Part shown: positions 7,129 to 25,941 of the stretch, in pieces | Layout of the letters: each line of letters opens with the position of its first letter | Position numbering within the stretch: position 1 is the stretch's first letter | Origin: SAR324 cluster bacterium | Lineage (GTDB): Bacteria > SAR324 > NAC60-12 | DNA length: 64,000 nucleotides | Assembly (NCBI GenBank): GCA_015232315.1 | Contig: JADFZZ010000010.1 | Location: 1-64,000, forward strand | Direction of reading: 5' to 3' | Notes under the pieces: model-generated | The model's input: only the letters and a program-made list of their open reading frames with translations | What the model was told of the DNA's origin: nothing | The model's database searches: none | Translations under genes and position numbers: made by a program

Positions 7129-7213
7129 AAAAATAAGGGTTGATCAAGCCGGATTAAAACGATAGGGGATAAAAAAGGGGAATTGCATAATTCGTGTGAA
7201 AATAAGGGGAAAT

Positions 7214-10075
7214 ATGAAAATCAAACTGATCCTTGTGACATGGTTGTCACTATTCATCGCACTGACTGACGCATGGGCGCTACCTCAGAGTGAATCAAAA
7301 TGTGATTCCTGTCTGATCAAAGTCCATTCACTGGAAAAACCGGTCGATCTGGCCGGCAACTGGCTGTTTACCCGGGAGGATCGTGAAACCAACAAGGATG
7401 TGGAAATCGACACGTCCGACTGGGTGCTTGTCAAGGCTCCGGGCCCCTGGAAAAAAGCCTATAACGACCATGAGGTTTATCGTGTCGGCTGGTATCGTGG
7501 CGTGCTGGAATTCGATCCCGCGTTGATCGGAAAAGAAGTTGTTTTCCTGGTGGATAGCTACATGTCAGCCTTGACGTTCTATCTGGATGGTCAACAGATT
7601 TTTCATCGCGGTGAACGAAAAACCAGTGAACGCTACTACGCCATCCAACCGATTCCAATTGCCTTCAAAGTGACGCGAACTCACCATGTGATCACCTTCC
7701 GGATTGATACGATTTTAATGGTTGGTGTTTACCAACTGCCGTTTCAGCTTCGGGAATTCAAGGACTTTGATTTTTTAATTTCATTCCTGCATTTCTGGGA
7801 AGGCGATTTCCGTCAGTTTGCGGCCAGTATCATTCTGGTATTCAGTCTGTTTTTCATGCTGATCTGGGCCAAAACCCGCTTCAACCTGTATCTGGTCACA
7901 GCCCTGATGGGGTTCTTTCAGTATCCGTTTTATGCGGCACCGGGAGATGTCTGGGCCACATTTTTCAATCCGGAAACATTACTGCTGATTCATTATCTGG
8001 GTATCACCACCGGTGCGGCATTGCATCATTATTTTGTGCAACATTTTTATAAATTTTATCCCCGTGTGACCCGGATCAACGGTATTTTTGTGATGCTTCA
8101 ATTTTGTGCTTTTGTATTTTTTATCTTCCATATGAATCTGGAAGTGTTCCAGAAACTCAGGGTTATCTGGCTCCTGAATACTTTTTTTCTGGGTGTTCAC
8201 ATGGTGTATATGCTGATCCGGAGCGTGTTGCAGAAACGTGAAGGCGCGGTCATCATTCTGATTGGTGAAACCATTCTGGTGCTGTCAGGTACCCAGGACA
8301 TGCTACTGGCGCTGGGAAAAATTGAATCCTTCATGATGATGTTCGCGGGGTCCCTGTTTGCGACCATGTGTATTCTCTGGTATTGTAGCAACCTGTTCGC
8401 CAACACCTTTGTGCAGAACAAAAAGTTGCTCACCGACATGAAAAAAATGAACACCGTACTGGAAGAGATGAATGATCATCTGGAAGAACTCGTGCTGGAT
8501 CGAACCGCTCAACTGCGTGAAAAATCCAATGACATTCTCACCATGCTGCAACATCTTCCCGAAGGCGTTCTCACCGTAATGCAGGATAATAAAATCCACC
8601 ATGAATATTCAGCCTATCTGGAAACCATTCTGGGCACAAAAGACATCGCGGACCGGGATGTCATGGACGTGTTGTTTAGCAATACAAACCTTGGTGTTGA
8701 TGCCCTTGCCAGTCTGGACACCGTGTTTGGCGCCTGCCTGGGAGAATTCGAACTTAATTTCTTAATGAATTCACACTTGATGATCAGGGAACTGGACAAA
8801 ACCCTGGCCGATGGCACCACCAAACATCTGGAACTCACCTGGTCGCCAATTGTCAATGAAGAAACTGAAGAGATCGACAAGATCCTGATCTGTGTCAGGG
8901 ATATCACGGAACTTAGAATCCTCCAGACTGCGGCCAATCTGCAGAAACGTGAACTGGAAATTATTGGCCAGATCCTGTCTGTGCCGCAGGAAAAATTTCA
9001 GGATTTCCTGGAATCCTCCAGAAATTTCATCATGGAAAATGAAAAAATTATCCGGCAAACAACCCGAAAAGACAATGAAATCCTTCAGGAGCTTTTCAGA
9101 AACATGCACACCATCAAAGGCAATGCCAGAACCTATGGTCTCGTGCATCTCACCAACATCGTGCATGAAGCAGAGCAGGAATATGATGATCTGAGAAAGC
9201 ATCCCGACCGGGAATGGAAGCCTGAACTTCTGCTGCAACAACTGGCTTCCTCCTCACGAATGCTGGATGAATATGCCTTGATCAATGAAAAGAAACTCGG
9301 ACGGAAAGGTCCGGGACGCAGAGGTTCTGCGGATAAATTTCTGATGATTGAGAAAGAGCGGATCACCAAATCCATTGAACTTCTGGAAAATGTAGACTCG
9401 CTGGAACCTCTGAAACTGATTCAGGCACTTGACCGGATTCGGGCCACCCTTAAAATTCTGGGAACAACGCCCACCCGTGAAATTGTGTCAGACATTGTGG
9501 ACTCCCTGCCCTCACTGGCCAGCGAACTGGGCAAGGAAACGCCTGAAGTCACCATCAATGACCATAATATTTTTATCAAAAACCAGGCCACAGGTTTGTT
9601 GAAAAACGCGTTCATGCATATTTTCAGAAACTCGCTGGATCATGGCATCGAAACCCCTGCAGAGCGGTTGAAACACGGCAAGGTTTCGCAGGGCAATATC
9701 CAGCTTGATGTCCTGATCGACCACGGTCAGTTGCTCATGCATTATCATGACGATGGCCGCGGACTCGCCCTCAGCAGGATTCGACAAAAAGCACTGGAAC
9801 AGGGCATGATCTTCGAAGGGGATGAGTTGCCACTGGAAGACCTTGCCAATCTGATTTTTCAATCAGGATTTTCTACGGCGGAAAAGGTCACTGAAGTTTC
9901 AGGTCGGGGAGTGGGTCTGGACGCTGTTAAAAAATTCTTCCAGAAAAACAAGGGCGATATCATGATTGAACTGCTGGATACCAGCCAGCCTGACGCTGAT
10001 TTCATTCCCTTTCAATTCACACTCCAGTTGCCCGAAAACCTGGCTGTCCAAGTGAACGAGCTTGAATTGATTTAA
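7214..10075 (+). CDS. Membrane CheA-like histidine kinase with DISM sensor, PAS-like and Hpt domains
   Basis: This sensor kinase (about 953 residues) starts at ATG 7214, preferred over GTG 7196 because it gives a standard signal peptide and has AGGGGA just upstream. In order: signal peptide (1-22), periplasmic jelly-roll/DISM-like domain (about 30-185, with AGNWLF and GWYRGVLEF), seven-helix membrane region (about 190-400), coiled coil (about 405-435), and PAS-like domain (about 440-570). An Hpt domain follows with the phospho-accepting His in MHTIKGNAR (about 630), then a CheA-type ATPase (about 760-940) with NSLDHGIE, DDGRGL and SGRGVGLDAV. There is no CheW-like or receiver domain, so it probably passes phosphate to a separate regulator. 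It heads a close + strand run with an exporter and an antiporter. Confidence 0.88.
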   Translation: MKIKLILVTWLSLFIALTDAWALPQSESKCDSCLIKVHSLEKPVDLAGNWLFTREDRETNKDVEIDTSDWVLVKAPGPWKKAYNDHEVYRVGWYRGVLEFDPALIGKEVVFLVDSYMSALTFYLDGQQIFHRGERKTSERYYAIQPIPIAFKVTRTHHVITFRIDTILMVGVYQLPFQLREFKDFDFLISFLHFWEGDFRQFAASIILVFSLFFMLIWAKTRFNLYLVTALMGFFQYPFYAAPGDVWATFFNPETLLLIHYLGITTGAALHHYFVQHFYKFYPRVTRINGIFVMLQFCAFVFFIFHMNLEVFQKLRVIWLLNTFFLGVHMVYMLIRSVLQKREGAVIILIGETILVLSGTQDMLLALGKIESFMMMFAGSLFATMCILWYCSNLFANTFVQNKKLLTDMKKMNTVLEEMNDHLEELVLDRTAQLREKSNDILTMLQHLPEGVLTVMQDNKIHHEYSAYLETILGTKDIADRDVMDVLFSNTNLGVDALASLDTVFGACLGEFELNFLMNSHLMIRELDKTLADGTTKHLELTWSPIVNEETEEIDKILICVRDITELRILQTAANLQKRELEIIGQILSVPQEKFQDFLESSRNFIMENEKIIRQTTRKDNEILQELFRNMHTIKGNARTYGLVHLTNIVHEAEQEYDDLRKHPDREWKPELLLQQLASSSRMLDEYALINEKKLGRKGPGRRGSADKFLMIEKERITKSIELLENVDSLEPLKLIQALDRIRATLKILGTTPTREIVSDIVDSLPSLASELGKETPEVTINDHNIFIKNQATGLLKNAFMHIFRNSLDHGIETPAERLKHGKVSQGNIQLDVLIDHGQLLMHYHDDGRGLALSRIRQKALEQGMIFEGDELPLEDLANLIFQSGFSTAEKVTEVSGRGVGLDAVKKFFQKNKGDIMIELLDTSQPDADFIPFQFTLQLPENLAVQVNELELI

Positions 10076-10103
10076 CACAATTTTCCATATTTTATAAGGT
10101 TGT

Positions 10104-12398
10104 ATGCAAAATTTCATTCGTTATCGCTGGCTGTGGTTCGGGTTGATGATCCTGATTATGGCACCCTTGCTGAAGTGGATCGGACCGGCACTCATTCCTG
10201 ATAATTCGTTGTCGGTGTGGTTTCTTAAAACAGATCCATTGCTGGTGTCCTATCATGAATTTCATGAACATTTCGGCAACGACGAAGTGATCCTGACCGT
10301 TCTTGAAGAAGAAAACGGGATCTTCAATCAGGCAACACTCCTGAAGCTTCAGGCCATGTCTGAAAAGATCAAAGCCATTGACGGAGTGGACCGGATCACC
10401 TCCATCCTGACCGTTCAGGACGCCTTTGACACGCCGGGCGGCATACGCTTTGAAAAACTGGTGCCCTCCCCGATTCCAGGCGATCCTGCCGAACTTCAGG
10501 CCATTGAGACCCGGGCCAGAAACAATATTCTCATTGAAGACAGGTTTGTCAGCAAAGATGGCAAAAAAGCCATGATTTCGATCCAGATGACCACCGGAAA
10601 TTTTGATGCCATCCGGGACAGGGTTGTGGCGGAAGTCAAACAGGTGATCGATGAAGATCTCAAAGACACGCCCCACCCCATTGGCGGACTTGGTGTGATT
10701 TACTCCGCACTGAACATTCTGACCCAACAGGATTTTGGAACCTTCCTGAGTTTATGCTATCTGTTCATGTTTTCTGCCATGTGGTGGGTTTTCCGGAGCG
10801 CCCGGTTGCTCATTGGCGGCATGGGCGTGATCCTGTATGGCTGTTTATTCACGCTGTCTATCTATGGTTTGGCCGGACGTCAGCTCAACATGGTCACAGC
10901 GGCCCTGCCGACCTTGATCATTGTGTTGGGAATTGGCGATGCCATTCATTTTCCGTCAACGTTCATTCATCTGCGACATGAATATCCCAATCTCACACGC
11001 CCACAGATTGTTGAAAAAGGATTGCGTCAGGTTTTTATGCCCTGTGTGCTGACTTCGATGACCACCATTGCCGGCTTTTTATCGCTGGTAACTTCGCCAA
11101 TGTCCGTCATCAAGGATATGGGAATTTATGCGGCCATCGGTTTGGTGGGAACCCTTGCGGCCAGTATGGTATTCATGACCATCGCGTTTCTCAGTCTTCC
11201 GGAAAATGTCCGGTTGCCACGACCGAAATGGATGGGAACTGTGCTCAACTGGTGTGAACAGGCTGTGATTCTTCATCCCTGGAAAGTGCTATCGGCCTTT
11301 GTTGTGGTCGCCTTACTCAGTTTCGGGGGGGCGTCCATGGTCAAAGTGGATACCTACACCATCGGATATCTGCCCAAAAGTGACAGGGCCGTGGTGGATC
11401 ATCATGACCTTGAACAACGCTGGGGCTATTACAATGTCATGGAATTTCTGATCAAACCCAAAGGGAGCCTGCGGGCGGACAGCCCTGAAATTCTGAATGG
11501 CATGGAATCGTTTATTGACGAAGTGAAGCAATTCCCCCAGATCCGTGACGGCTCCAGCCAGCATCTGGTCTATCGTCGTCTTGAAACTGTTTTCCGTGGA
11601 ACCGAACCCCCACCCGGTCCGATGTCGCCGGAACTCATTGCGCAGATGCGTATGATCATCGGTGTTGATTCGATGTCCTGGGACAAATCAGAAGAAGCGT
11701 ATGATGACAATTTTGTGGCACCGTTCATGATGGAAGACGGTTCGCTGGGAAGAGTCACCTTGATCGGGGCCATGATGAGCGCCTCGGAAGTGTCTGAGCT
11801 GATCGGAAAGGTTCAACTCATTGCCCAACGCCACCTTGGTGTCTATGCGGAGGTGGTCAGTTCAGGCTATGTGCCGATGTATGTGACCATCATTGACTAT
11901 GTGATGCGTTCCCAGATCAACAGTTTTTTTCTGGCACTGGGATTGATTTTTCTGATGATGCTTTTATGGCTCAGGTCTTTCCGATTAGCCCTGCTCAGCC
12001 TGATTCCCAATGTGTATCCTGTGCTGGTCATGATGGGTTGCATGGGTGCCGCCGGAATTGATCTGGATGTCACCACCGCCATCATTGCGGCTATTGTGAT
12101 CGGTGTGGCCATTGATGATACCATCCATTTTCTGTATCACTGGAACGAAGCGGAAAAAGCCCACAAAACTTGGGAACAGGCCTTGAAGTGGACCTTTGAT
12201 CATTCTGGAAGAGCCGCGATCACCACCACGGTTCTGCTGATGATTGGCTACCCTGTGATGATGTTTGCCAGTGTGAAATCTGTCGTTTATTTTGGCTTTC
12301 TGACCACCATTGCGGCATTCACCGCCTTGCTCGCGGACCTGTTGCTCACTCCACTGATGATGCGGCTCTGGCCCCCTAAATCAGTCACTTCCAAATAA
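10104..12398 (+). CDS. RND-superfamily exporter, MMPL/SSD type
   Basis: This 764-residue protein has the two-fold RND layout. An N-terminal helix precedes a periplasmic domain (about 35-205), then a six-helix bundle, a second periplasmic domain (about 420-600) and a second bundle. Family signatures in the bundles are GIGDAIHFPSTFIHL in the first half and IGVAIDDTIHFLYHW in the second, the places where MMPL/hopanoid-exporter-like proteins carry acidic residues for proton coupling. TSMTTIAGFLSLVTSP is also typical. Likely substrates are lipids or hydrophobic molecules. No membrane-fusion partner is adjacent. It starts 28 bases after the CheA-like kinase and ends 23 bases before the antiporter gene. 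Confidence 0.85.
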   Translation: MQNFIRYRWLWFGLMILIMAPLLKWIGPALIPDNSLSVWFLKTDPLLVSYHEFHEHFGNDEVILTVLEEENGIFNQATLLKLQAMSEKIKAIDGVDRITSILTVQDAFDTPGGIRFEKLVPSPIPGDPAELQAIETRARNNILIEDRFVSKDGKKAMISIQMTTGNFDAIRDRVVAEVKQVIDEDLKDTPHPIGGLGVIYSALNILTQQDFGTFLSLCYLFMFSAMWWVFRSARLLIGGMGVILYGCLFTLSIYGLAGRQLNMVTAALPTLIIVLGIGDAIHFPSTFIHLRHEYPNLTRPQIVEKGLRQVFMPCVLTSMTTIAGFLSLVTSPMSVIKDMGIYAAIGLVGTLAASMVFMTIAFLSLPENVRLPRPKWMGTVLNWCEQAVILHPWKVLSAFVVVALLSFGGASMVKVDTYTIGYLPKSDRAVVDHHDLEQRWGYYNVMEFLIKPKGSLRADSPEILNGMESFIDEVKQFPQIRDGSSQHLVYRRLETVFRGTEPPPGPMSPELIAQMRMIIGVDSMSWDKSEEAYDDNFVAPFMMEDGSLGRVTLIGAMMSASEVSELIGKVQLIAQRHLGVYAEVVSSGYVPMYVTIIDYVMRSQINSFFLALGLIFLMMLLWLRSFRLALLSLIPNVYPVLVMMGCMGAAGIDLDVTTAIIAAIVIGVAIDDTIHFLYHWNEAEKAHKTWEQALKWTFDHSGRAAITTTVLLMIGYPVMMFASVKSVVYFGFLTTIAAFTALLADLLLTPLMMRLWPPKSVTSK

Positions 12399-12421
12399 TC
12401 GCTCAACCAAGAGAAGTTTTT

Positions 12422-14203
12422 ATGGAAATTCCATTACTACAGGATATTGCCATAATTTTTGGTTTGTCCATCATTGTGCTCTTCATTTTTGAAAAGATCC
12501 GTTTGCCGCCAATCATCGGGTTTCTGCTGACAGGAACCCTGGTGGGGCCTCATGGATTACACATGATCGAAGCCATGCATGAAGTGGAAATGCTGGCGGA
12601 AATCGGGGTGGTCCTGTTGTTGTTCACCATTGGACTCGAACTCTCCATCAGGGAACTGGTGCATAACAAAAAAGCGGTGCTGTTGGGCGGCTCCCTTCAG
12701 GTATTCCTCACCGTCCTGATTGTTTTTGGTCTATCCCGATCTTTGGGGATCACGCCGGGAACCGCAATTTTCATGGGGTGTCTGGTTTCTTTGAGCAGCA
12801 CGGCCATTGTGCTCGGGGTGTTGCAGGAAAAAGGCAAGGTTCACTCGTCTCATGGAAAAATGATGGTCGCCATCCTGATTTTTCAGGACATCATCTCCGT
12901 GGTGATGATGCTACTCACCCCGCTTCTCCAACAAGGCGACCAGCAGGTGGATATCACCAACGCGCTATTGATTCTGCTGGTCAAGGCGGTCGTGATCATC
13001 GGCCTGGTGATTGTGTCTTCCCGCTATATCATTCCCCGTTTGATGTACCAGATTGCCAACACGAAAAATCAGGATCTGTTTCTGTTAAGCATCGTGGGTG
13101 TCTGTCTGCTGATCGCCTGGGGTGCGGCCAGTATTGGACTTTCACTTGGACTCGGCGCGTTTCTGGCAGGATTGATCATTTCCGAATCCGAATACAGCCT
13201 CCGTGCCCTGGGCAGTGTACTGCCATTCCGGAGTGTTTTTCTGAGCTTCTTTTTTGTATCGATTGGAATCTTGTTCAATGGGCTGTTCCTGCTTGAAAAT
13301 CTGTTATTGATTCTCATGCTGACCCTCTGTGTGATCGGCATCAAAGCGCTGGTTCTTATGCTGGTAGGCGTTGTGTTGCGATCTGATCTGAAAACAACCC
13401 TCCTTGTGGGCCTCTCCCTCAGTCAGATTGGAGAGTTTTCCTTTTTGCTGTCAAATATCGGCCTTGGTTCCGGTGTTCTCAGCCAGCATCATTATCAGTT
13501 GTTTTTATCCATCGCGGTGTTGACGATGGGATTGACGCCCTTATTGATGTATCTGGCGCCGCTGTTGGCTGGCAGTCTGATCAAAGCGCAAACAGCGGTA
13601 CGCTTCAGAAAAGGCCCTGTCAAAGTGAAAGATTCCACACAGGAAGTGGATCTGAAAATGGAATACCATCTGGTCATCATCGGCTATGGACTGCATGGAA
13701 AACTGCTGGCTAAAACCGCCCGTGAAACAGCGATTCCCTATATCATTCTGGAAATGGACGCTGAAATTGTGAAAGAAGAAAAACTCAAAGGCGAACCGAT
13801 TCTGTATGGCGATGCCCGACATGAAAATTTTCTAAATCACGCCTACATCAAAAACGCGTTCATGGTGGTCATTGCCACCTCGGATATCACCACATCCCGT
13901 CAAATCGTAGCCCTTGTCCGGCAACTCAATCCCAAAGTCCATATTCTGGTGCGAACCCGATTTATTCTGGAAGTGGATCATCTGACACGAATGGGGGCCA
14001 ACAGCGTGATTCCGGTTGAATTCGAAGCGGCGCTGGCAATTCAGCGTCAAACCCTGTCCCATTTCCTGATTCCACCCGATGAGATTGAGCGGTTCATGGA
14101 CAGAATCAGGCAGGATGGCTATCGCAAATTCATTGCGGATGCGGTCTCAGGCAATTTTGAACAGTCTGAGATTGACAAAATGTTCAGTCACCCTGTCAGA
14201 TGA
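12422..14203 (+). CDS. KefB-type monovalent cation:proton antiporter with RCK_N domain
   Basis: This 593-residue protein belongs to the CPA2 family. About 12 membrane helices (residues 5-385) include the signatures GFLLTGTLVGPHGL, GVVLLLFTIGLELS and GLGAFLAGLIISES. A cytoplasmic RCK_N/TrkA-N NAD-binding domain begins near residue 414 (LVIIGYGLHGKLLA) and is followed by YGDARHENFLNHA, typical of KefB/KefC and YbaL. It probably exchanges K+ or Na+ for H+ under nucleotide control. There is no RCK_C domain; the chain ends soon after the Rossmann fold. It lies within the operon-like run 7214-18741. Confidence 0.92.
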   Translation: MEIPLLQDIAIIFGLSIIVLFIFEKIRLPPIIGFLLTGTLVGPHGLHMIEAMHEVEMLAEIGVVLLLFTIGLELSIRELVHNKKAVLLGGSLQVFLTVLIVFGLSRSLGITPGTAIFMGCLVSLSSTAIVLGVLQEKGKVHSSHGKMMVAILIFQDIISVVMMLLTPLLQQGDQQVDITNALLILLVKAVVIIGLVIVSSRYIIPRLMYQIANTKNQDLFLLSIVGVCLLIAWGAASIGLSLGLGAFLAGLIISESEYSLRALGSVLPFRSVFLSFFFVSIGILFNGLFLLENLLLILMLTLCVIGIKALVLMLVGVVLRSDLKTTLLVGLSLSQIGEFSFLLSNIGLGSGVLSQHHYQLFLSIAVLTMGLTPLLMYLAPLLAGSLIKAQTAVRFRKGPVKVKDSTQEVDLKMEYHLVIIGYGLHGKLLAKTARETAIPYIILEMDAEIVKEEKLKGEPILYGDARHENFLNHAYIKNAFMVVIATSDITTSRQIVALVRQLNPKVHILVRTRFILEVDHLTRMGANSVIPVEFEAALAIQRQTLSHFLIPPDEIERFMDRIRQDGYRKFIADAVSGNFEQSEIDKMFSHPVR

Positions 14204-14265
14204 GAAATATTTCCCCTGAAAGTCGATGCTGATTCCATCACAAACCTCATGAACCATTAACCCGC

Positions 14266-17200
14266 ATGTCAACACCGTTATTTCATTGGGATCTTTTCTG
14301 GCCTTATGGCATTCCTCCGCTGTTGACGGTGATCAGCGCCTTTTTTCTTTCCACACTCACCATGAGAGGTGCCAGACACAGTCAGGAACATCAGGTGTTC
14401 AGCCTGTTCTGCGCGTTACAGGGCGTGGGCTATTTGCTCGTGACAATGGATGTCCTTCTGGTTTCGCCTGAACTCTCACTGACCGCGTCCCGCATCAACG
14501 CGCTGGTCTATAATTTCATCATCCCTGCCGGAATCCATCTGACCCATGCCCTTCTCGGAATCCATACCCGCAAATGGCTCACCAGAGGGGGGTATCTTGT
14601 AATCCTGCTGTTGCTTCCGTTCACGCAGGGCGACTTACACATCCTTGAAAAATATCGTACCTTCTGGGGGTTTGTTCCAAGAGGGGGCGTGGTTTATCTG
14701 ACCTTTTATTCACTGGCCTTGCTGGCATTGATTTATTGCGGAGTGATGCTCCTTCAGGGAATCCTCCGAACGCCCTCAGGTGAACAGAAACTCAAAATCA
14801 AACTGCTGTTCAGCGGCCTGTTTTTAAGCGCGTTTCTGAGTCTGGTGGATGGCCTCGTTTCCATGACGCACATCACCTGGTACCCGCTGGGAAATCTGGG
14901 CTTTATTCCGTTGGGTATCATGGCTTATGGCGTGCTCCGGCAAGATCTGGTCGATACCGCACGGACATGGTTGTCGCAAGGATACATCTCGAAATTGCTG
15001 GCAATGATGGTGTGGGTACCGTTGATCATGGCCGTGGTGTTCTATTTCACAGCCACTGAAGGAACCTTTTATCCAAAGGTGTCAGAGCGAATATTTCCCT
15101 ATGCCATTCCGTCCGCCATCTCCTTCATGGTGTGTTATTTTCTGGCCTCGTTTTCCTTTTTGAAGGGCAGTCGAAAAATTGAGACGCTCCTGTTTGGAAC
15201 CCTGTGCTGGCTGTGGGGAAATATGAACCTGGATATCACGCTGATCTCCATGGTGATCCACGAATCCGTGGCCCTGACGATTTCAAGGATGGATCATTTT
15301 TTACTGGTGTTGCAGCCTGCGGTTTACGCATGGTTCATTTTCTATCTGATCCGGGCGCCGAAAGTCTTTGTTTTTGGAACCACCCTGATCGGTTTATGCC
15401 TCATGCCACTCACCCAGACGGATCTTTATTTTCGGGGAATGTTCCACTTTTACTGGGGATTTTTCGGTAAAAAAAATGTGCTCTTTGATGTTTTCAGTGT
15501 CTTAACGACTGTTTCCGCACTGTATGTGATTTTCACCCTGATCACTGAAATCCGTCACACTGAAAACAAAAAAAAGAAAAAATCCTACGAATATTTTCTG
15601 GCCGGAGGAGTGGTTTCCGCCTTGTTGTCCATTGGCAACATTCCCGCGGTGTACGGCCTTGAAATATATCCTGTGGGAAATTTTGTATTTATTCCCATCC
15701 TGATCATGGCGTATGGCATGTTTCGTCATGATATCATTGAAATCAGTGATTACGCCAAACAGCGAGCCACGCGCCGCATGGCCCAGATGTTCCTGCTGAT
15801 GGTCTATGTCTCCATTGGTCTGGCGTTCTGGATGGCTGGTGCCGGTCACACGCCCTCACAGGTGTTGCTGCACCTTGTTCCTTATGGCATTCCGCCGTTT
15901 TTATCGCTTCTGACCTGCCTGTTTTTTTCATTTGCGGCGATTCGTGTAGGCCGGTTGCGAACCGAACTGGTTTTGTTCAGTCTGATTTGCATCGTCTGGG
16001 CCTTCCTCAATGCGGATATCATGCTGCTGGGGGTGGTGGATACCGCGGAGCAGGCACTTCAGATCAGCAGACTGGATCATTTTTTTCTGGTCATGGGACC
16101 CGCGTTGTTCCTGCATCTGTTCATGACTGTCGCCGGAGATGTGCGCAAAGCCTGGATGTATTCCTTTTATCTGGCCGGTCTGGTGTTCATGCCCTTGACC
16201 CGCTCGGATTATTACCTGAACGGAATGTCGCGATATTACTGGGGATATTATGCCACCAAAGGGATTTTGTTTGATATCTTCGGGGCGTTGTTTCTATTTG
16301 CGGTATTCCTGGGATTTTATGTTTTAATCAAGGACTGGAGACAAACCACCGCGCCCCTGAAAAAACAAACGCTGAAATATATTCTTCTCGGATTGACTGC
16401 CACCGTGATTTTGAATCTGGGAAATTTCCCGGCGCTGTATGGTTATGAAATTTATCCTGCCGGCAATTTCACCTTCATTCCCATTCTGCTGATTGGTTAC
16501 GGGTTGTTACGCCGCTATTTCAACTCTGTGAGCATATTCTTCCGCCAGATCCTGCATTACACCTTGCTGTTAGCCGTTATTGGCGCAATGAGTTTTCTGA
16601 TTTCTCCCTCGCTGTTGACTATGGCAGGTCTGGCCCTGGCCACAGGTCTGTTTTTCAGGACAATCAATCGCTGGATTGAAATCATGCTCAATCTGGTGTT
16701 TCAAACCGACACCCAGGACTGGCCAAAACTGCTGCAACAGGCCAACAATAGACTGTCCATTTCCATCAGCGTGGACTCCATCCGGCAAGCCCTGATTCCC
16801 TACTTTCTGAAACATCTCTCCTGCCAGAAATGCTGGCTTTTTTTCGAACAGGACCATGCCCTTTATTTTGAAGGTGACAGCGTTGTTTATGCAAAACATA
16901 ATGATCCGGCAGAGTTTACTTATCAGCTACAGGATCATGTCCGGTTCAGCGCGGAACATCCGGTCGTTCAGATGTTGTATGAATTACAGGATCAGGTGTT
17001 GGCAGAGCAGTTGGATGAATGGATGCGCTCCCGCTCACTGCGACTTTCCCCTGAAGACCTGTTCACCCGGGGGGTTGTACTCCAACCCGTGTTTTTCCAT
17101 GGTGCGCTGGTGGGTATCATCGTGCTTGAAGAAAAACTCAATGAACAGTTGTATTCTTTTGAAGAACTGAGATTCATCCGTCATATCAGTTCGTCCCTGG

Positions 17201-18741
17201 GGCCCATCATTGAAAATGTGAAACTGGTCAGCACCCTGGAACAACGAATTCAGGACCGTACCCGGGATTTACAGAAGGCTCACCAGGAAATCAGTCATCT
17301 GAACGAAGTGACCCAGGCGGTGAATTCCTCGCTGATTCTGGAGGATGTTCTGAAATCTTTCATGGGCGTGATGCTCGAGATCTTTTTCTTTGACCAGTTG
17401 GGAGTGGTCTTTTTACAACCCGATGAACATCTGCATTTTGTCAGCTTTTCTATTGGTTTTACAGAAGAGCAATTGAAAGCCTTCATGGCTATCCGGATTC
17501 CGATCAAAACCAGTTTAAGTGTGTACGCCTCAACCGTGCTGCATAATGAACCGAGTTATTTTCCACAAATTGATGAAAGCATGCAAAAACTGTTGGTGGA
17601 GGATGACCGCATCCTGTTCGAAATCAGCCCGGTCAAAAGTATTTTGCTGTATCCTGTCGTAGTGCGAGGTAAGGTCATTGGTCTGCTTCATTTCGGCAAC
17701 ACGAAAGCGTATTATGATCTACAGGAAGCGGACATTGAAAAAATTCAGCGTTATGTGAGTCAGATCGCGTCTGCCATCAACAACGCCAGACTTTTTGAAG
17801 AGTTGAAAACCACACGGATCCAACTTGCTGAAAGCGAAAAAGTGGCCGCCATGACCAAGACCTTTGAGAAATTTGTGCCCAAGCCGTTTCTGCTGCGGAT
17901 TGCCCGTGAAGGACTCGAAAATATCGAACTCGGGAAAGGTCAAAGCGACAACATCACGATTCTATTTTCGGACATCCGCATGTTCACGGCCCTGTCTGAA
18001 AGCATGACGGCACAGGAATTGATGAACTTCCTCAATTCCTACCTGCAACGCATGAGTATCCCGATCCATGAGTTTGGCGGATTCATTGACAAGTTCATTG
18101 GCGATGCGATCATGGCGTTGTTTGATTTTCCCGACAGGAATGATTCGGAAGAAGCCGAATCCGCCGTCAAAGCGGCGATTGCCATGCAGAACGCGCTCAA
18201 ATTATACAACCAGCATCGAAGTTCGCATGGATATCGCGCCATCACGAATGGCATCGGGATCCATAGCGGTCAGGTCGTCATTGGAACTGTCGGTTCAGAA
18301 AGCCGGATGGATTCCACCGTGATTGGCGACAGCGTCAATCTGGCCTCCCGCATTGAAGGCCTGACCAAATTTTATGGAGCCGATATTCTGATCAGCTCCC
18401 AAACCCTGGAGCTGATCCGGGATAAAAGCTGGCTGAAACTCCGGGAACTGGACAAGGTAAAAGTTCAGGGCAAGAGCAAATCCGTGGGAATCTATGAAGT
18501 TCTCAATCATTATTCCACCGAAATTCAGGAACTCAAACGTGCGTCCGGCCAAATGATTCTCAAGGGATTGGTGTATAGAAATCTTCAGGACTGGAACACT
18601 GTGCAGAAGTGCTTTGAGCAGGCCTTGAAATGGTATCCTGAAGACAAAGCCGCTCATTTTCTTATGGAACAAACCCGTCAAATGCAAACCATGCAACTCC
18701 CTGAAGATTGGGATGGATCACTCATTCTGGAACAGAAGTGA
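14266..18741 (+). CDS. Giant adenylate cyclase with triplicated membrane sensor module and two GAF domains
   Basis: The N-terminal half of this 1491-residue protein holds three copies of a roughly 210-residue multi-helix module. They begin near residues 11, 277 and 538 with PYGIPP, PYAIPS and PYGIPP, and end near 221, 482 and 743 with YGVLRQD, YGMFRHD and YGLLRRY. Copies two and three share the most, including ISRxDHF and the EIYPxGNFxFIPI block before the end. The module recalls the N-terminal 7TM region of some histidine kinases. Two more helices, a GAF domain (about 815-985) and a second GAF (about 1010-1180) follow. The class III cyclase domain shows ITILFSDIRMFT (about 1235), FIDKFIGDAIMALF (about 1274, metal Asp and adenine Lys) and IGDSVNLASR (about 1352). 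A TPR-like tail closes the protein. cAMP synthesis is well supported; the ligands are unknown. Confidence 0.88.
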   Translation: MSTPLFHWDLFWPYGIPPLLTVISAFFLSTLTMRGARHSQEHQVFSLFCALQGVGYLLVTMDVLLVSPELSLTASRINALVYNFIIPAGIHLTHALLGIHTRKWLTRGGYLVILLLLPFTQGDLHILEKYRTFWGFVPRGGVVYLTFYSLALLALIYCGVMLLQGILRTPSGEQKLKIKLLFSGLFLSAFLSLVDGLVSMTHITWYPLGNLGFIPLGIMAYGVLRQDLVDTARTWLSQGYISKLLAMMVWVPLIMAVVFYFTATEGTFYPKVSERIFPYAIPSAISFMVCYFLASFSFLKGSRKIETLLFGTLCWLWGNMNLDITLISMVIHESVALTISRMDHFLLVLQPAVYAWFIFYLIRAPKVFVFGTTLIGLCLMPLTQTDLYFRGMFHFYWGFFGKKNVLFDVFSVLTTVSALYVIFTLITEIRHTENKKKKKSYEYFLAGGVVSALLSIGNIPAVYGLEIYPVGNFVFIPILIMAYGMFRHDIIEISDYAKQRATRRMAQMFLLMVYVSIGLAFWMAGAGHTPSQVLLHLVPYGIPPFLSLLTCLFFSFAAIRVGRLRTELVLFSLICIVWAFLNADIMLLGVVDTAEQALQISRLDHFFLVMGPALFLHLFMTVAGDVRKAWMYSFYLAGLVFMPLTRSDYYLNGMSRYYWGYYATKGILFDIFGALFLFAVFLGFYVLIKDWRQTTAPLKKQTLKYILLGLTATVILNLGNFPALYGYEIYPAGNFTFIPILLIGYGLLRRYFNSVSIFFRQILHYTLLLAVIGAMSFLISPSLLTMAGLALATGLFFRTINRWIEIMLNLVFQTDTQDWPKLLQQANNRLSISISVDSIRQALIPYFLKHLSCQKCWLFFEQDHALYFEGDSVVYAKHNDPAEFTYQLQDHVRFSAEHPVVQMLYELQDQVLAEQLDEWMRSRSLRLSPEDLFTRGVVLQPVFFHGALVGIIVLEEKLNEQLYSFEELRFIRHISSSLGPIIENVKLVSTLEQRIQDRTRDLQKAHQEISHLNEVTQAVNSSLILEDVLKSFMGVMLEIFFFDQLGVVFLQPDEHLHFVSFSIGFTEEQLKAFMAIRIPIKTSLSVYASTVLHNEPSYFPQIDESMQKLLVEDDRILFEISPVKSILLYPVVVRGKVIGLLHFGNTKAYYDLQEADIEKIQRYVSQIASAINNARLFEELKTTRIQLAESEKVAAMTKTFEKFVPKPFLLRIAREGLENIELGKGQSDNITILFSDIRMFTALSESMTAQELMNFLNSYLQRMSIPIHEFGGFIDKFIGDAIMALFDFPDRNDSEEAESAVKAAIAMQNALKLYNQHRSSHGYRAITNGIGIHSGQVVIGTVGSESRMDSTVIGDSVNLASRIEGLTKFYGADILISSQTLELIRDKSWLKLRELDKVKVQGKSKSVGIYEVLNHYSTEIQELKRASGQMILKGLVYRNLQDWNTVQKCFEQALKWYPEDKAAHFLMEQTRQMQTMQLPEDWDGSLILEQK

Positions 18742-22116: not shown

Positions 22117-25100
22117 ATGAAATTCCCTGAAAATTTTGAGAAATTTCCGGAAATTCCCCTGTGGAGTTCCTCGCTTCACGCTCAATCAAGCAACTTTCAA
22201 TACTCAGATGGAGACGATGCTGAAAATTACATGTTGCAGGCTGTCAGGGATGCCAGGGATTTAGGACCGCATTCGATCGAACTCCAGCAAAAAATAAAAG
22301 ATTGGTCCTCAGAATATCATTTTTCATTCAAACGTAGCAATTTGCTGAGACCCTTTAACCTGTCAAGGGAAGATACCGTCCTTGAATTGGGTTGCGGATG
22401 TGGTGCAATCACACGCTATTTGGGGGAAACCTGTGGCGAAGTGGTTGCTGTTGAAGGCAGTTTGAGACGTGCAGAGATCGCCGCACAACGATGCCGGAAC
22501 TTGAATAATGTAACGGTTATTCAATGTAATTTTCAGGAACTGGAGTTAAACCGGACTTTTGATGTAGTCACCCTGATTGGTGTACTCGAATACAGTGGAA
22601 TGTTTCTGAATGGTGAGAACCCTTACCTTCAATGTCTGGAAATGGCCGGCCGATATCTATCGCCTGAAGGGATTCTGGTGATCGCCATAGAAAACAAACT
22701 GGGATTGAAATATCTGGCTGGTTGCTCGGAGGAACACACATCAAAACGATATCGTGGAATTGAGGGGTACTCTACAGATTCAAAAGTCTCGACGTTTGGT
22801 AAGGACGAACTTCATCGTTTGTTAAGAAAATCCGGTTTGATAGAACATGAATTATTCATTCCTTTTCCAGATTATAAATTGCCTGACGGAATGATGGCGT
22901 TTTCCAGAATTAAACCCCAACCTGAAGCTCCATTTTTATATCAATGGTTTTCTTATGAACGGTCACGTGATTATTCACTGATTCAACAACCTGGCTTTAA
23001 TGAATTTCTGGTGGCTCGGGAATTTGAAGCGAACGGTCTGTTAGAAGAAATCGCCAATTCTTTCGTGGTGATTGCTGGAAAAAATCCGGAAGCACTGAAA
23101 AGAATCACCGAGGCATCATGGTGGATAAACAAATATAATGTGTCCCGAGCAAAACCATACATGACTTCGTTAAGCATGGAACCACAGTCTGATCGTCTGG
23201 TGATCAAAAAACAACCAATTTATCCTGAAATACGGCAAACCTTTACGTTTCCGGACGGGTTGAATCATGATGCTGAAGAAATAGCTGATTTTATACCTGG
23301 AACACCTTTAATTGAAAAACTGCTGAGAGATTTTGCTTCAGGAACCTATTCGCTAATAACTTTTTTGCGAGACTGGCTTGAGTTTCTAAATGCGGAATCC
23401 AGAAGATTGAATTGTGCTGAGGGCGAACTGCCAGGAAACTATATTGATTGTGTTCCCTGGAACATCATGGAACAACCGGATGGAACCCAAGTCTATTTTG
23501 ACCGTGAGTGGAAATATGGGGAAACTCTTTCTGTCAAATTCATATTCACACGGGGACTTATTTTTATTTATCATTGGTTCCATCGCAAAATATATCAGGA
23601 ATTGTTTCCACAACTGAATACATATTCTTTCCATCATTTTTATCATTATTGTTTCAATGAGCTTTCGCTTGGGACCTCTGAGGAAGAGTTTGAGTCTCTT
23701 ATGAAACTGGAATGGACTTTTCAGAAGATGGTGAATCCTGAAGTATTGGTTACCCTTGTTAGTTTTATTCAACAATTCAAACAGGAGCAATGGAATCGCT
23801 ATGGTAATCTGGATTATTACCTAGAACATGCGAAAGAAAACATCCAACAACTGAATACTCAAATAGAACAGTTGAATACTCAAATAGAACATTTGCATAC
23901 TCAAATGGATAAATCCAATGCCAGATTGCTGGAATACCATTATCTTGTCAAACGCATGGAAGCAACACTCGCATGGAGAACGCATGTACTATTGCGAACA
24001 ATGATCAAACAAGTCCCAAGACAAACACTACAATTCCTGAAAAAGAAAACGCCTTTAGCCAGACATTTGGTTCAGCAACATGGATGGAAATATTTTATTG
24101 TGTATTCGATCAAATGGTTTGCCAGGAAAATACATATAAAAACACGCTCTAAATGGAGGACATTGCAGTGGAAAACTCATTACCGTCTGAGTCACATTGA
24201 TTTTTTGCATTCCTATCTTCCCCAGTTATTACCCTACAGTCCTGATCCTGCCTATTATTCCTGGCTAATTCATAATTATCCCCAGAATAATAAATTGAAG
24301 GATATGCAGGAAACAATGAAAAATTGGCAATATCATCCATTGATCAGCATTATTGTTCCAACCTACAATTCTCCAGAAAAATTTTTAAGAGAAATGATAC
24401 AGTCTGTACGGAGTCAGCTTTATTCCAATTGGGAACTATGCATTGCCGATGATGCGTCGCCTAATGCGCATATTCGAACAATTCTTGAGGACTATCGTAA
24501 ACAGGATTCACGAATCAAGATCTGTTATCGTGAACAAAATGGTCATATTTGCCATGCCTCAAATTCAGCTCTCGAATTGGCAACAGGGGAATACATAGCC
24601 CTGCTGGATCATGATGATTTGTTAACGCCTCACGCCTTGTATAAAGTTGTCGAATTGCTGAACAAGCACTCTGACGTGGATATGATTTACAGTGATGAGG
24701 ACAAGGTGGACGAATCAGGCTATTTGAAAGATCCCTATTTCAAGGCAGATTGGAGTCCTGATACATTTTTGAGCAGGATGTATACCTGCCATCTTGGGGT
24801 TTACAGACGTTCCCTCATTGATAAAATTGGTGGATTCCGTCCGGGGTTTGAAGGTGCTCAGGACTATGATCTGGTACTTCGGTTAACGGAACAAACCAAC
24901 CAGATTTTTCATATTCCAGATATTTTATATCATTGGAGAATTCACAGTGGTTCCACGGCAATGGGGGGGCAGCAAATTAAACCATATGCCTATGTCGCCG
25001 CTGAAAAAGCGTTGAAAGAAGCATTGGAACGACGTGGCGAACCTGGAACAGTCAAAGGTGTTGAACAATTACTTGGAAGTTATGAAGTCCGTTATCAGAT

Positions 25101-25941
25101 CCAACAGAATGATTTGGTGAGCATCATTATTCCGACACGAGATTTGTCTTCAATTCTTGAACGATGTTTGCGTTCTATCGTTGAAAAAACACTGTATCCA
25201 AATTATGAAATCATTCTCCTGGATAATGGTAGCCGCGAACAGGAAACACTGGATTTATTTGATCGCTGGAAAATAAATTATCCTACGCAATTTCATGTTG
25301 TCCGCCATGATGTGCCCTTCAATTATTCCATCATCAATAATCACGCTGTTCGGCATAGTAAGGGCAAATATCTTTTGTTTTTGAATAATGACACAGAAGT
25401 GATTACTCCCGACTGGATTTCTGCAATGCTTGAACAGGCACAGCGTCCCTCCATTGGGGCGGTGGGCGCAATGTTGCTTTATCCTGACGATACCATTCAA
25501 CACGGAGGCGTCGTGCTGGGACTTGGTGGTGCCGCGGCCCATAGTCATCGATGTTTCCCCTCAACCAGTCCCGGATATGTGGGGCACCTCTGGTGTGTGA
25601 CCAATTATTCAGCGGTGACTGCGGCTTGTTTGATGTGCCGCAGGGATGTTTTTGAGGAAATTGGTGGTTTTGAAGAAACACTGGCAGGAAACTATAATGA
25701 TGTGGATTTATGTCTGAAAATGGTGGCCAAGGGATATCGAAATGTTTATTTACCGCATGTAAAATTGTACCATCACGAATCAAAAAGCCGGGGCAAAGAC
25801 ACGACTCCAGAAAAACAGGCAAGGTTCCTTCAGGAATTTGATTATTTACGCAATAAATGGCCCGAATTCATTGAGCACGATCCGTGCTACAATCCACACC
25901 TCACCCGAAATCATGAAGATTATAGTATTCGCACTCAATGA
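22117..25941 (+). CDS. Methyltransferase fused to two GT2 glycosyltransferases
   Basis: This 1274-residue cytoplasmic protein combines three catalytic units. A class I SAM methyltransferase has motif I VLELGCGCGAITRYLG (about 87), with motif II-like VVAVEGS. A middle region of unknown function is followed by a short heptad coil (about 570-605, near-repeats of QLNTQIE). GT2 domain one begins near 742 (ISIIVPTYNSPEK) with the metal motif LLDHDD (about 831) and acceptor region GAQDYDLVLRL. GT2 domain two begins near 1000 (VSIIIPTRDLS) with FLNNDTEV (about 1089). Such fusions assemble and cap surface glycans, and the methyl group may be the terminal mark read by Wzt. Its stop overlaps the next start by four bases. 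Confidence 0.88.
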   Translation: MKFPENFEKFPEIPLWSSSLHAQSSNFQYSDGDDAENYMLQAVRDARDLGPHSIELQQKIKDWSSEYHFSFKRSNLLRPFNLSREDTVLELGCGCGAITRYLGETCGEVVAVEGSLRRAEIAAQRCRNLNNVTVIQCNFQELELNRTFDVVTLIGVLEYSGMFLNGENPYLQCLEMAGRYLSPEGILVIAIENKLGLKYLAGCSEEHTSKRYRGIEGYSTDSKVSTFGKDELHRLLRKSGLIEHELFIPFPDYKLPDGMMAFSRIKPQPEAPFLYQWFSYERSRDYSLIQQPGFNEFLVAREFEANGLLEEIANSFVVIAGKNPEALKRITEASWWINKYNVSRAKPYMTSLSMEPQSDRLVIKKQPIYPEIRQTFTFPDGLNHDAEEIADFIPGTPLIEKLLRDFASGTYSLITFLRDWLEFLNAESRRLNCAEGELPGNYIDCVPWNIMEQPDGTQVYFDREWKYGETLSVKFIFTRGLIFIYHWFHRKIYQELFPQLNTYSFHHFYHYCFNELSLGTSEEEFESLMKLEWTFQKMVNPEVLVTLVSFIQQFKQEQWNRYGNLDYYLEHAKENIQQLNTQIEQLNTQIEHLHTQMDKSNARLLEYHYLVKRMEATLAWRTHVLLRTMIKQVPRQTLQFLKKKTPLARHLVQQHGWKYFIVYSIKWFARKIHIKTRSKWRTLQWKTHYRLSHIDFLHSYLPQLLPYSPDPAYYSWLIHNYPQNNKLKDMQETMKNWQYHPLISIIVPTYNSPEKFLREMIQSVRSQLYSNWELCIADDASPNAHIRTILEDYRKQDSRIKICYREQNGHICHASNSALELATGEYIALLDHDDLLTPHALYKVVELLNKHSDVDMIYSDEDKVDESGYLKDPYFKADWSPDTFLSRMYTCHLGVYRRSLIDKIGGFRPGFEGAQDYDLVLRLTEQTNQIFHIPDILYHWRIHSGSTAMGGQQIKPYAYVAAEKALKEALERRGEPGTVKGVEQLLGSYEVRYQIQQNDLVSIIIPTRDLSSILERCLRSIVEKTLYPNYEIILLDNGSREQETLDLFDRWKINYPTQFHVVRHDVPFNYSIINNHAVRHSKGKYLLFLNNDTEVITPDWISAMLEQAQRPSIGAVGAMLLYPDDTIQHGGVVLGLGGAAAHSHRCFPSTSPGYVGHLWCVTNYSAVTAACLMCRRDVFEEIGGFEETLAGNYNDVDLCLKMVAKGYRNVYLPHVKLYHHESKSRGKDTTPEKQARFLQEFDYLRNKWPEFIEHDPCYNPHLTRNHEDYSIRTQ

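Follow-up and report, generated by a model that had tools for sequence, protein, structure and literature searches.

The gene at positions 14266-18741 (forward strand) of the stretch analysed here, the first 64,000 nucleotides (nt) of contig JADFZZ010000010.1 from a SAR324 cluster bacterium (assembly GCA_015232315.1; hereafter the window), encodes a 1491-residue protein that is probably a membrane receptor adenylate cyclase. Residues 1-790 consist of three membrane modules (M1, M2 and M3) at a spacing of about 260 residues. These unequal sensors, each a bundle of seven transmembrane helices (7TM), would act through a stalk formed by M3 and the GAF domains to set the level of cyclic AMP (cAMP). 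The array is real and unusual, and it belongs to a larger family than was seen in an earlier examination of the DNA letters (the sequence-only reading), a family in which HisKA_7TM-type sensors are found on class III cyclases and on other outputs. The features of the gene, all on the forward strand, are as follows.

14266..18741, + strand: whole gene, predicted three-module 7TM receptor adenylate cyclase, 1491 residues, ATG start (open reading frame).
14266..15042, + strand: sensor module M1, 7TM bundle and return helix TM8, HisKA_7TM-like (module profile match 14275-15036, E 2.6e-83; helices).
15055..15840, + strand: sensor module M2, 7TM bundle and return helix (module profile match 15061-15822, E 5e-92; AlphaFold2 model).
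15841..16611, + strand: sensor module M3, 7TM bundle adjoining the output part (module profile match 15847-16602, E 6e-86).
16543..16680, + strand: two closing helices, TM24 and TM25, bringing the polypeptide back to the cytoplasmic side (hydropathy maxima at residues 778 and 798).
16801..17214, + strand: weak GAF-like domain 1 (GAF_2 E 0.0019, below cut-off).
17212..17331, + strand: charged helical linker, putatively signalling-helix-like, STLEQRIQDRTRDLQKAHQEISHL (from the sequence itself).
17344..17778, + strand: GAF domain 2 (GAF and GAF_2 matches).
17941..18483, + strand: class III adenylate cyclase catalytic domain with complete catalytic residues (PF00211 E 3e-24; motifs; CyaB 3r5g E 5e-35).
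18559..18645, + strand: single TPR-like motif at the C-terminus (TPR_2 E 2.5e-4, below the Pfam cut-off).

The sequence-only reading had described a triplicated module of about 210 residues, opening with a PYxIPP-like motif and closing with YGxxR. Both motifs are located in all three copies, the first at residues 13-18, 278-283 and 539-544 and the second at residues 221-225, 483-487 and 745-749. The number of copies stands, the repeat unit is longer than had been proposed, at about 260 residues including a linking helix. Self-comparison with BLAST gives three significant alignments, between M1 and M2 (26% identity over 248 residues, E 3e-26), M1 and M3 (27%, E 1e-21) and M2 and M3 (37% over 230 residues, E 2e-55). 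The corresponding alignment scores are 239, 217 and 442, against means of 39-44 for shuffled sequences in which the hydrophobic or polar class was kept at each position (z 29, 26 and 38). Chance and plain hydrophobic similarity are ruled out as explanations of the repeat, because the scores lie 26-38 standard deviations above these hydrophobicity-preserving shuffles.

The module is, judged by sequence similarity, a diverged relative of the Pfam family HisKA_7TM (PF16927), as had been suspected. Modules of this type score above the HisKA_7TM cut-off at five places in the genome, all within three-module genes, and also in relatives from other genomes; these matches, in paralogues and relatives, cover nearly all 224 positions of the family. 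HisKA_7TM has been described as a sensor in archaeal kinases (PMC5847659). The family is known as an N-terminal 7TM sensor that stands before signalling outputs in histidine kinases, whereas the present protein has three diverged copies in a fixed order, followed by a class III cyclase. It has no histidine kinase output; among its relatives, C17, L057 and L059-L061 are kinases with the module. Like these sensors, the 7TMR-DISM family (PF07695) comprises bacterial 7TM sensors with variable outputs. This identity was rejected, as a single module out of 37 gives a match, and a weak one (E 0.0065). No other Pfam sensor family matches the module better than HisKA_7TM.

Averaged over 12 paralogues in the genome, hydropathy shows exactly 25 peaks in residues 1-800, grouped 8+8+9. 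Predicted inside loops carry a mean of 3.3 lysine and arginine residues and outside loops 1.1; loop 17 (1.67) is the only predicted inside loop with a value in the range of the outside loops. An AlphaFold2 model of the single module M2, built from 19 sequences, is confident (predicted local distance difference test, pLDDT, 89; predicted template-modelling score, pTM, 0.82). This model has seven helices with a beta hairpin between helices 4 and 5, followed by a further long helix. Together the peaks, loop charges and model identify the repeat as a 7TM bundle plus one return helix, the next bundle can therefore begin in the same orientation with its N-terminus outside. The predicted topology is thus three N-out 7TM bundles, each with a return helix, and two closing helices that lead to the cytoplasm, 25 helices in all. 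As in HisKA_7TM, there are seven transmembrane helices with the N-terminus outside and the C-terminus leading to a cytoplasmic output.

The module profile has 37 matches in the genome, and 36 of these come from 12 genes that have exactly three modules apiece. The outputs of these genes are a class III cyclase in seven cases (contigs 10, 35, 23, 48, 3, 3 and 18), GGDEF in three (contigs 3, 39 and 50), a histidine kinase (HATPase) in one (contig 17) and a SpoIIE phosphatase in one (contig 1). The cyclase, GGDEF and His-box motifs are intact across the three-module genes. The sensor trio therefore has the look of an ancient receptor cassette that has been used repeatedly, not of an isolated curiosity. 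The remaining match is a remnant of 230 residues on contig 23 (locus L018, 79301-80490). It comprises most of an M1, closest to the M1 of the contig 35 gene, followed, in a different frame, by a GAF-like stretch that contains a single TAG; neither M2 nor M3 was found at this locus. Contig 3 has three three-module genes clustered in about 24 kb (at 115-140 kb), with cyclase, GGDEF and again cyclase outputs. Two kinase-type proteins with cyclic-nucleotide-monophosphate (cNMP)-binding domains stand beside a three-module cyclase at about 130.3-134.9 kb (L143:3338-7865), these are possible cAMP readers.

In a tree of 101 modules, M1 (support 100/99), M3 (100/99) and M2 (91/98) form separate groups, and each group mixes the SAR324 genome with metagenome-assembled genomes (MAGs) of Desulfobacterota type, so that two or more phyla are included. 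A second tree of 111 modules reproduces these groups; here M2 and M3 are joined (98/85) and M1 is placed with single-module kinases (99/90). As the groups remain separate across genes and phyla, the array goes back to one old triplication that was kept as a unit. The simplest reading of the trees is that this three-module array spread between phyla, expanded to 12 genes in the SAR324 genome and changed its outputs. Identity between paralogues within the genome is about equal for the three positions (M1 31%, M2 29%, M3 32%) and each position has conserved residues of its own. No module resembles a decaying spare copy. The contig 18 paralogue has an M1-type module in second place, 43% identical to its own M1 and 21-22% to M3; here M2 was replaced by an M1-type copy in an internal swap. 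Reduced forms keep M3: they have M2 and M3 (G226, G098), M1 and M3 (G005), or M3 alone on diguanylate cyclases. The M3-alone diguanylate cyclases may reflect loss or an ancestral state, the tree does not settle the direction.

No full array is present in the other sampled genomes of the same phylum. The nearest form there is a two-module version in G005 (contig C52, L110:1058-8116), a protein of 2352 residues with a Ser/Thr protein kinase, WD40 repeats, M1- and M3-type modules, GAF and a class III cyclase. When GTDB contigs were scanned with a four-row module alignment, three-module genes appeared in four MAGs named Deltaproteobacteria or Desulfobacteraceae (in one case broken by an assembly gap), and relatives with one or two modules in three further MAGs. 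The 865-residue protein L058 was rejected as a sensor lacking an output, its short array runs into an NNN stretch of the assembly. In the class of one such MAG, at least 8 of 389 genomes have at least 10 full arrays between them; these counts are lower bounds because two candidates were scored per genome. The full arrays examined in this class feed hybrid histidine kinases or GGDEF domains; single-module kinases (about 730-750 residues) and diguanylate cyclases (about 880 residues) are much commoner.

Two-module proteins are frequent in the phylum of G064, and some have GAF-cyclase outputs. Their modules (L127-L138) form two groups of their own in the tree, on long branches. This suggests a separate tandem duplication, an assignment the long branches make unsure. 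Arrays of more than three modules were not seen among the loci examined, and a plasmid search for the sensor gave no match. The architecture had been called unusual. It is unusual without being unique, given the 12 three-module genes with four kinds of output in this genome and the arrays in Desulfobacterota-type MAGs; the three-module form on a cyclase is found, within the sample, only in the SAR324 genome. No description of tandem HisKA_7TM arrays or of tandem transmembrane sensor cyclases was found in the open-access literature, a weak sign of novelty.

The catalytic domain was correctly recognised in the sequence-only reading as an intact class III cyclase. The two metal-binding aspartates, the base-specifying lysine and threonine and the transition-state asparagine and arginine are all present (D1236, K1276, D1280, T1351, N1358 and R1362) and align with CyaB (3r5g), the nearest solved catalytic domain. 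The likeness to CyaB-type cyclases concerns the catalytic domain alone, sensor parts not having been compared. The second of the two GAF domains that had been claimed is clear (residues about 1030-1171), the first (about 845-982) is weak. Rv1625c/Cya and the mammalian cyclases also couple a membrane part to a class III catalytic domain. Their anchors have six transmembrane helices (6TM), one or two per chain, whereas the present protein has three bundles of seven helices, each repeated with a return helix, and unlike in those cyclases GAF domains separate the membrane part from catalysis. The membrane domains of mammalian and mycobacterial class III cyclases are described as lipid receptors in two reports (PMC11606603, PMC12505454). 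A further paper describes replacement of a cyclase membrane anchor by a ligand-gated 6TM quorum-sensing receptor (PMC4821796).

The homology and order of the modules, their topology, single origin and output swapping, and the intact catalytic residues are computed properties. Ligands, signal direction, integration by M3 and dimerisation are what we infer. By analogy with the membrane domains of other cyclases the array may be a receptor, perhaps for hydrophobic ligands; these would probably be small hydrophobic or lipid-like molecules, or the state of the membrane itself might be sensed. A ligand-dependent change could arise in any of the three bundles and would reach M3, the putative transmitter adjoining the output. 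From there the signal would pass through the M3 closing helices and the signalling-helix linker to the GAF pair, which may alter how a class III cyclase homodimer is aligned and so set the level of cAMP. M1 and M2 would be distinct accessory sensors or modulators and not spare copies. M3 is never missing from the reduced forms that stem from the array, a pattern that suggests M3 as the link to the output and M1 and M2 as modifiers. The cassette has a single origin and stayed a unit while its output changed between a cyclase, GGDEF, histidine kinase and SpoIIE. The modules diverged long ago and have conserved residues specific to each position, which would fit the earlier proposal of different ligands for the copies.

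Several results weigh against a receptor cyclase of this kind. M1, M2 and M3 of the 1491-residue protein all fall below the HisKA_7TM cut-off. A Foldseek search of the PDB with the module model gave no match at E <= 0.001. Bundles of the rhodopsin or G-protein-coupled receptor (GPCR) type, including mGluR5 and GABA-B receptors, were matched only at E >= 2e-3 (best E 2e-3) with TM-scores up to 0.56; this likeness of the model is best regarded as resemblance, not homology. By sequence, the module has no solved homologue at E <= 10. The AlphaFold2 model of all three modules is of low confidence (pLDDT 66, pTM 0.53), so the packing of the modules and the route of the signal lack structural support. 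The intramolecular array suggested in the sequence-only reading holds as a description of the anatomy. The proposal of lipid ligands is an argument from analogy.

A more specific form of the receptor cyclase, which we regard as tentative, is an intramolecular receptor hetero-trimer, in which two modulators and one transmitter occupy fixed positions in one chain and are carried as a cassette across output enzymes. If this were true, one cell would read combinations of ligands through a dozen proteins into cAMP, cyclic di-GMP, phosphorelay and phosphatase outputs. Less likely than the receptor cyclase with three sensors is that only M3 senses and transmits, with M1 and M2 serving as a scaffold for clustering, dimerisation or membrane placement and having no ligands of their own. 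In favour of this, M3 adjoins the output in every full array and is kept in all the array-derived reduced forms. However, conservation among paralogues and relatives is no weaker in M1 and M2 than in M3, with position-specific residues in each, and all three modules are kept in 12 of 12 paralogues.

The retention of three modules also makes it improbable that the number of copies is accidental, a neutral product of domain duplication that became frozen although three were never needed. The existence of arrays with one, two or three modules and the swap in the contig 18 paralogue speak for such an accident. Neutral arrays would nevertheless be expected to vary in number, yet the 12 full genes of this genome and the Desulfobacterota-type arrays, at about 30% identity, all have exactly three modules, and the M1, M2 and M3 groups stay separate. 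Marginally less probable still is a transceptor, in which a membrane part resembling a transporter or channel would signal its transport to the cyclase. The 25 predicted helices give a transporter-like size, one module weakly resembles Solute_trans_a (E 1.7e-5) and the gene closes a densely packed run that includes an MMPL transporter and a Na+/H+ exchanger. Against this, the best family matches are to the sensor family HisKA_7TM, there are histidine kinases and diguanylate cyclases with a lone module, and MMPL is common in the genome (28 matches).

The run in question comprises four genes at 7196-18741 (+ strand) with gaps of 28, 23 and 62 nt and is possibly one operon. It consists of a kinase with 7TMR-DISM, PAS, Hpt and HATPase domains (the 7TMR-DISM match, at 7196-10075, is weak), the MMPL transporter, the Na+/H+ exchanger with a TrkA_N domain, and then the cyclase. 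Adjacency is weak functional evidence here because the DISM-Hpt kinase and MMPL families are common in the genome, and the neighbours were therefore set aside as a clue to function. Elsewhere in the window, the gene at 22117-25941 encodes a 1274-residue protein that combines a methyltransferase at the N-terminus with two glycosyltransferase domains of family 2, and it stands after RmlD and ABC-2/Wzt polysaccharide export genes. An Rfam scan of the 64,000-nt window gave no match. Across the 5.25 Mb genome there are about 44 places with a class III cyclase domain, as counted from the match list, and 46 matches to cNMP-binding domains above the cut-off, there are therefore many possible cAMP readers.

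In bacterial sensors a single membrane sensor normally precedes a single output. A conserved chain of three sensors with positional identity, joined to four types of output in one genome, is a natural system for receptor integration within one polypeptide. It bears on whether the membrane domains of cyclases are receptors, a question recently raised for the mammalian and mycobacterial enzymes.

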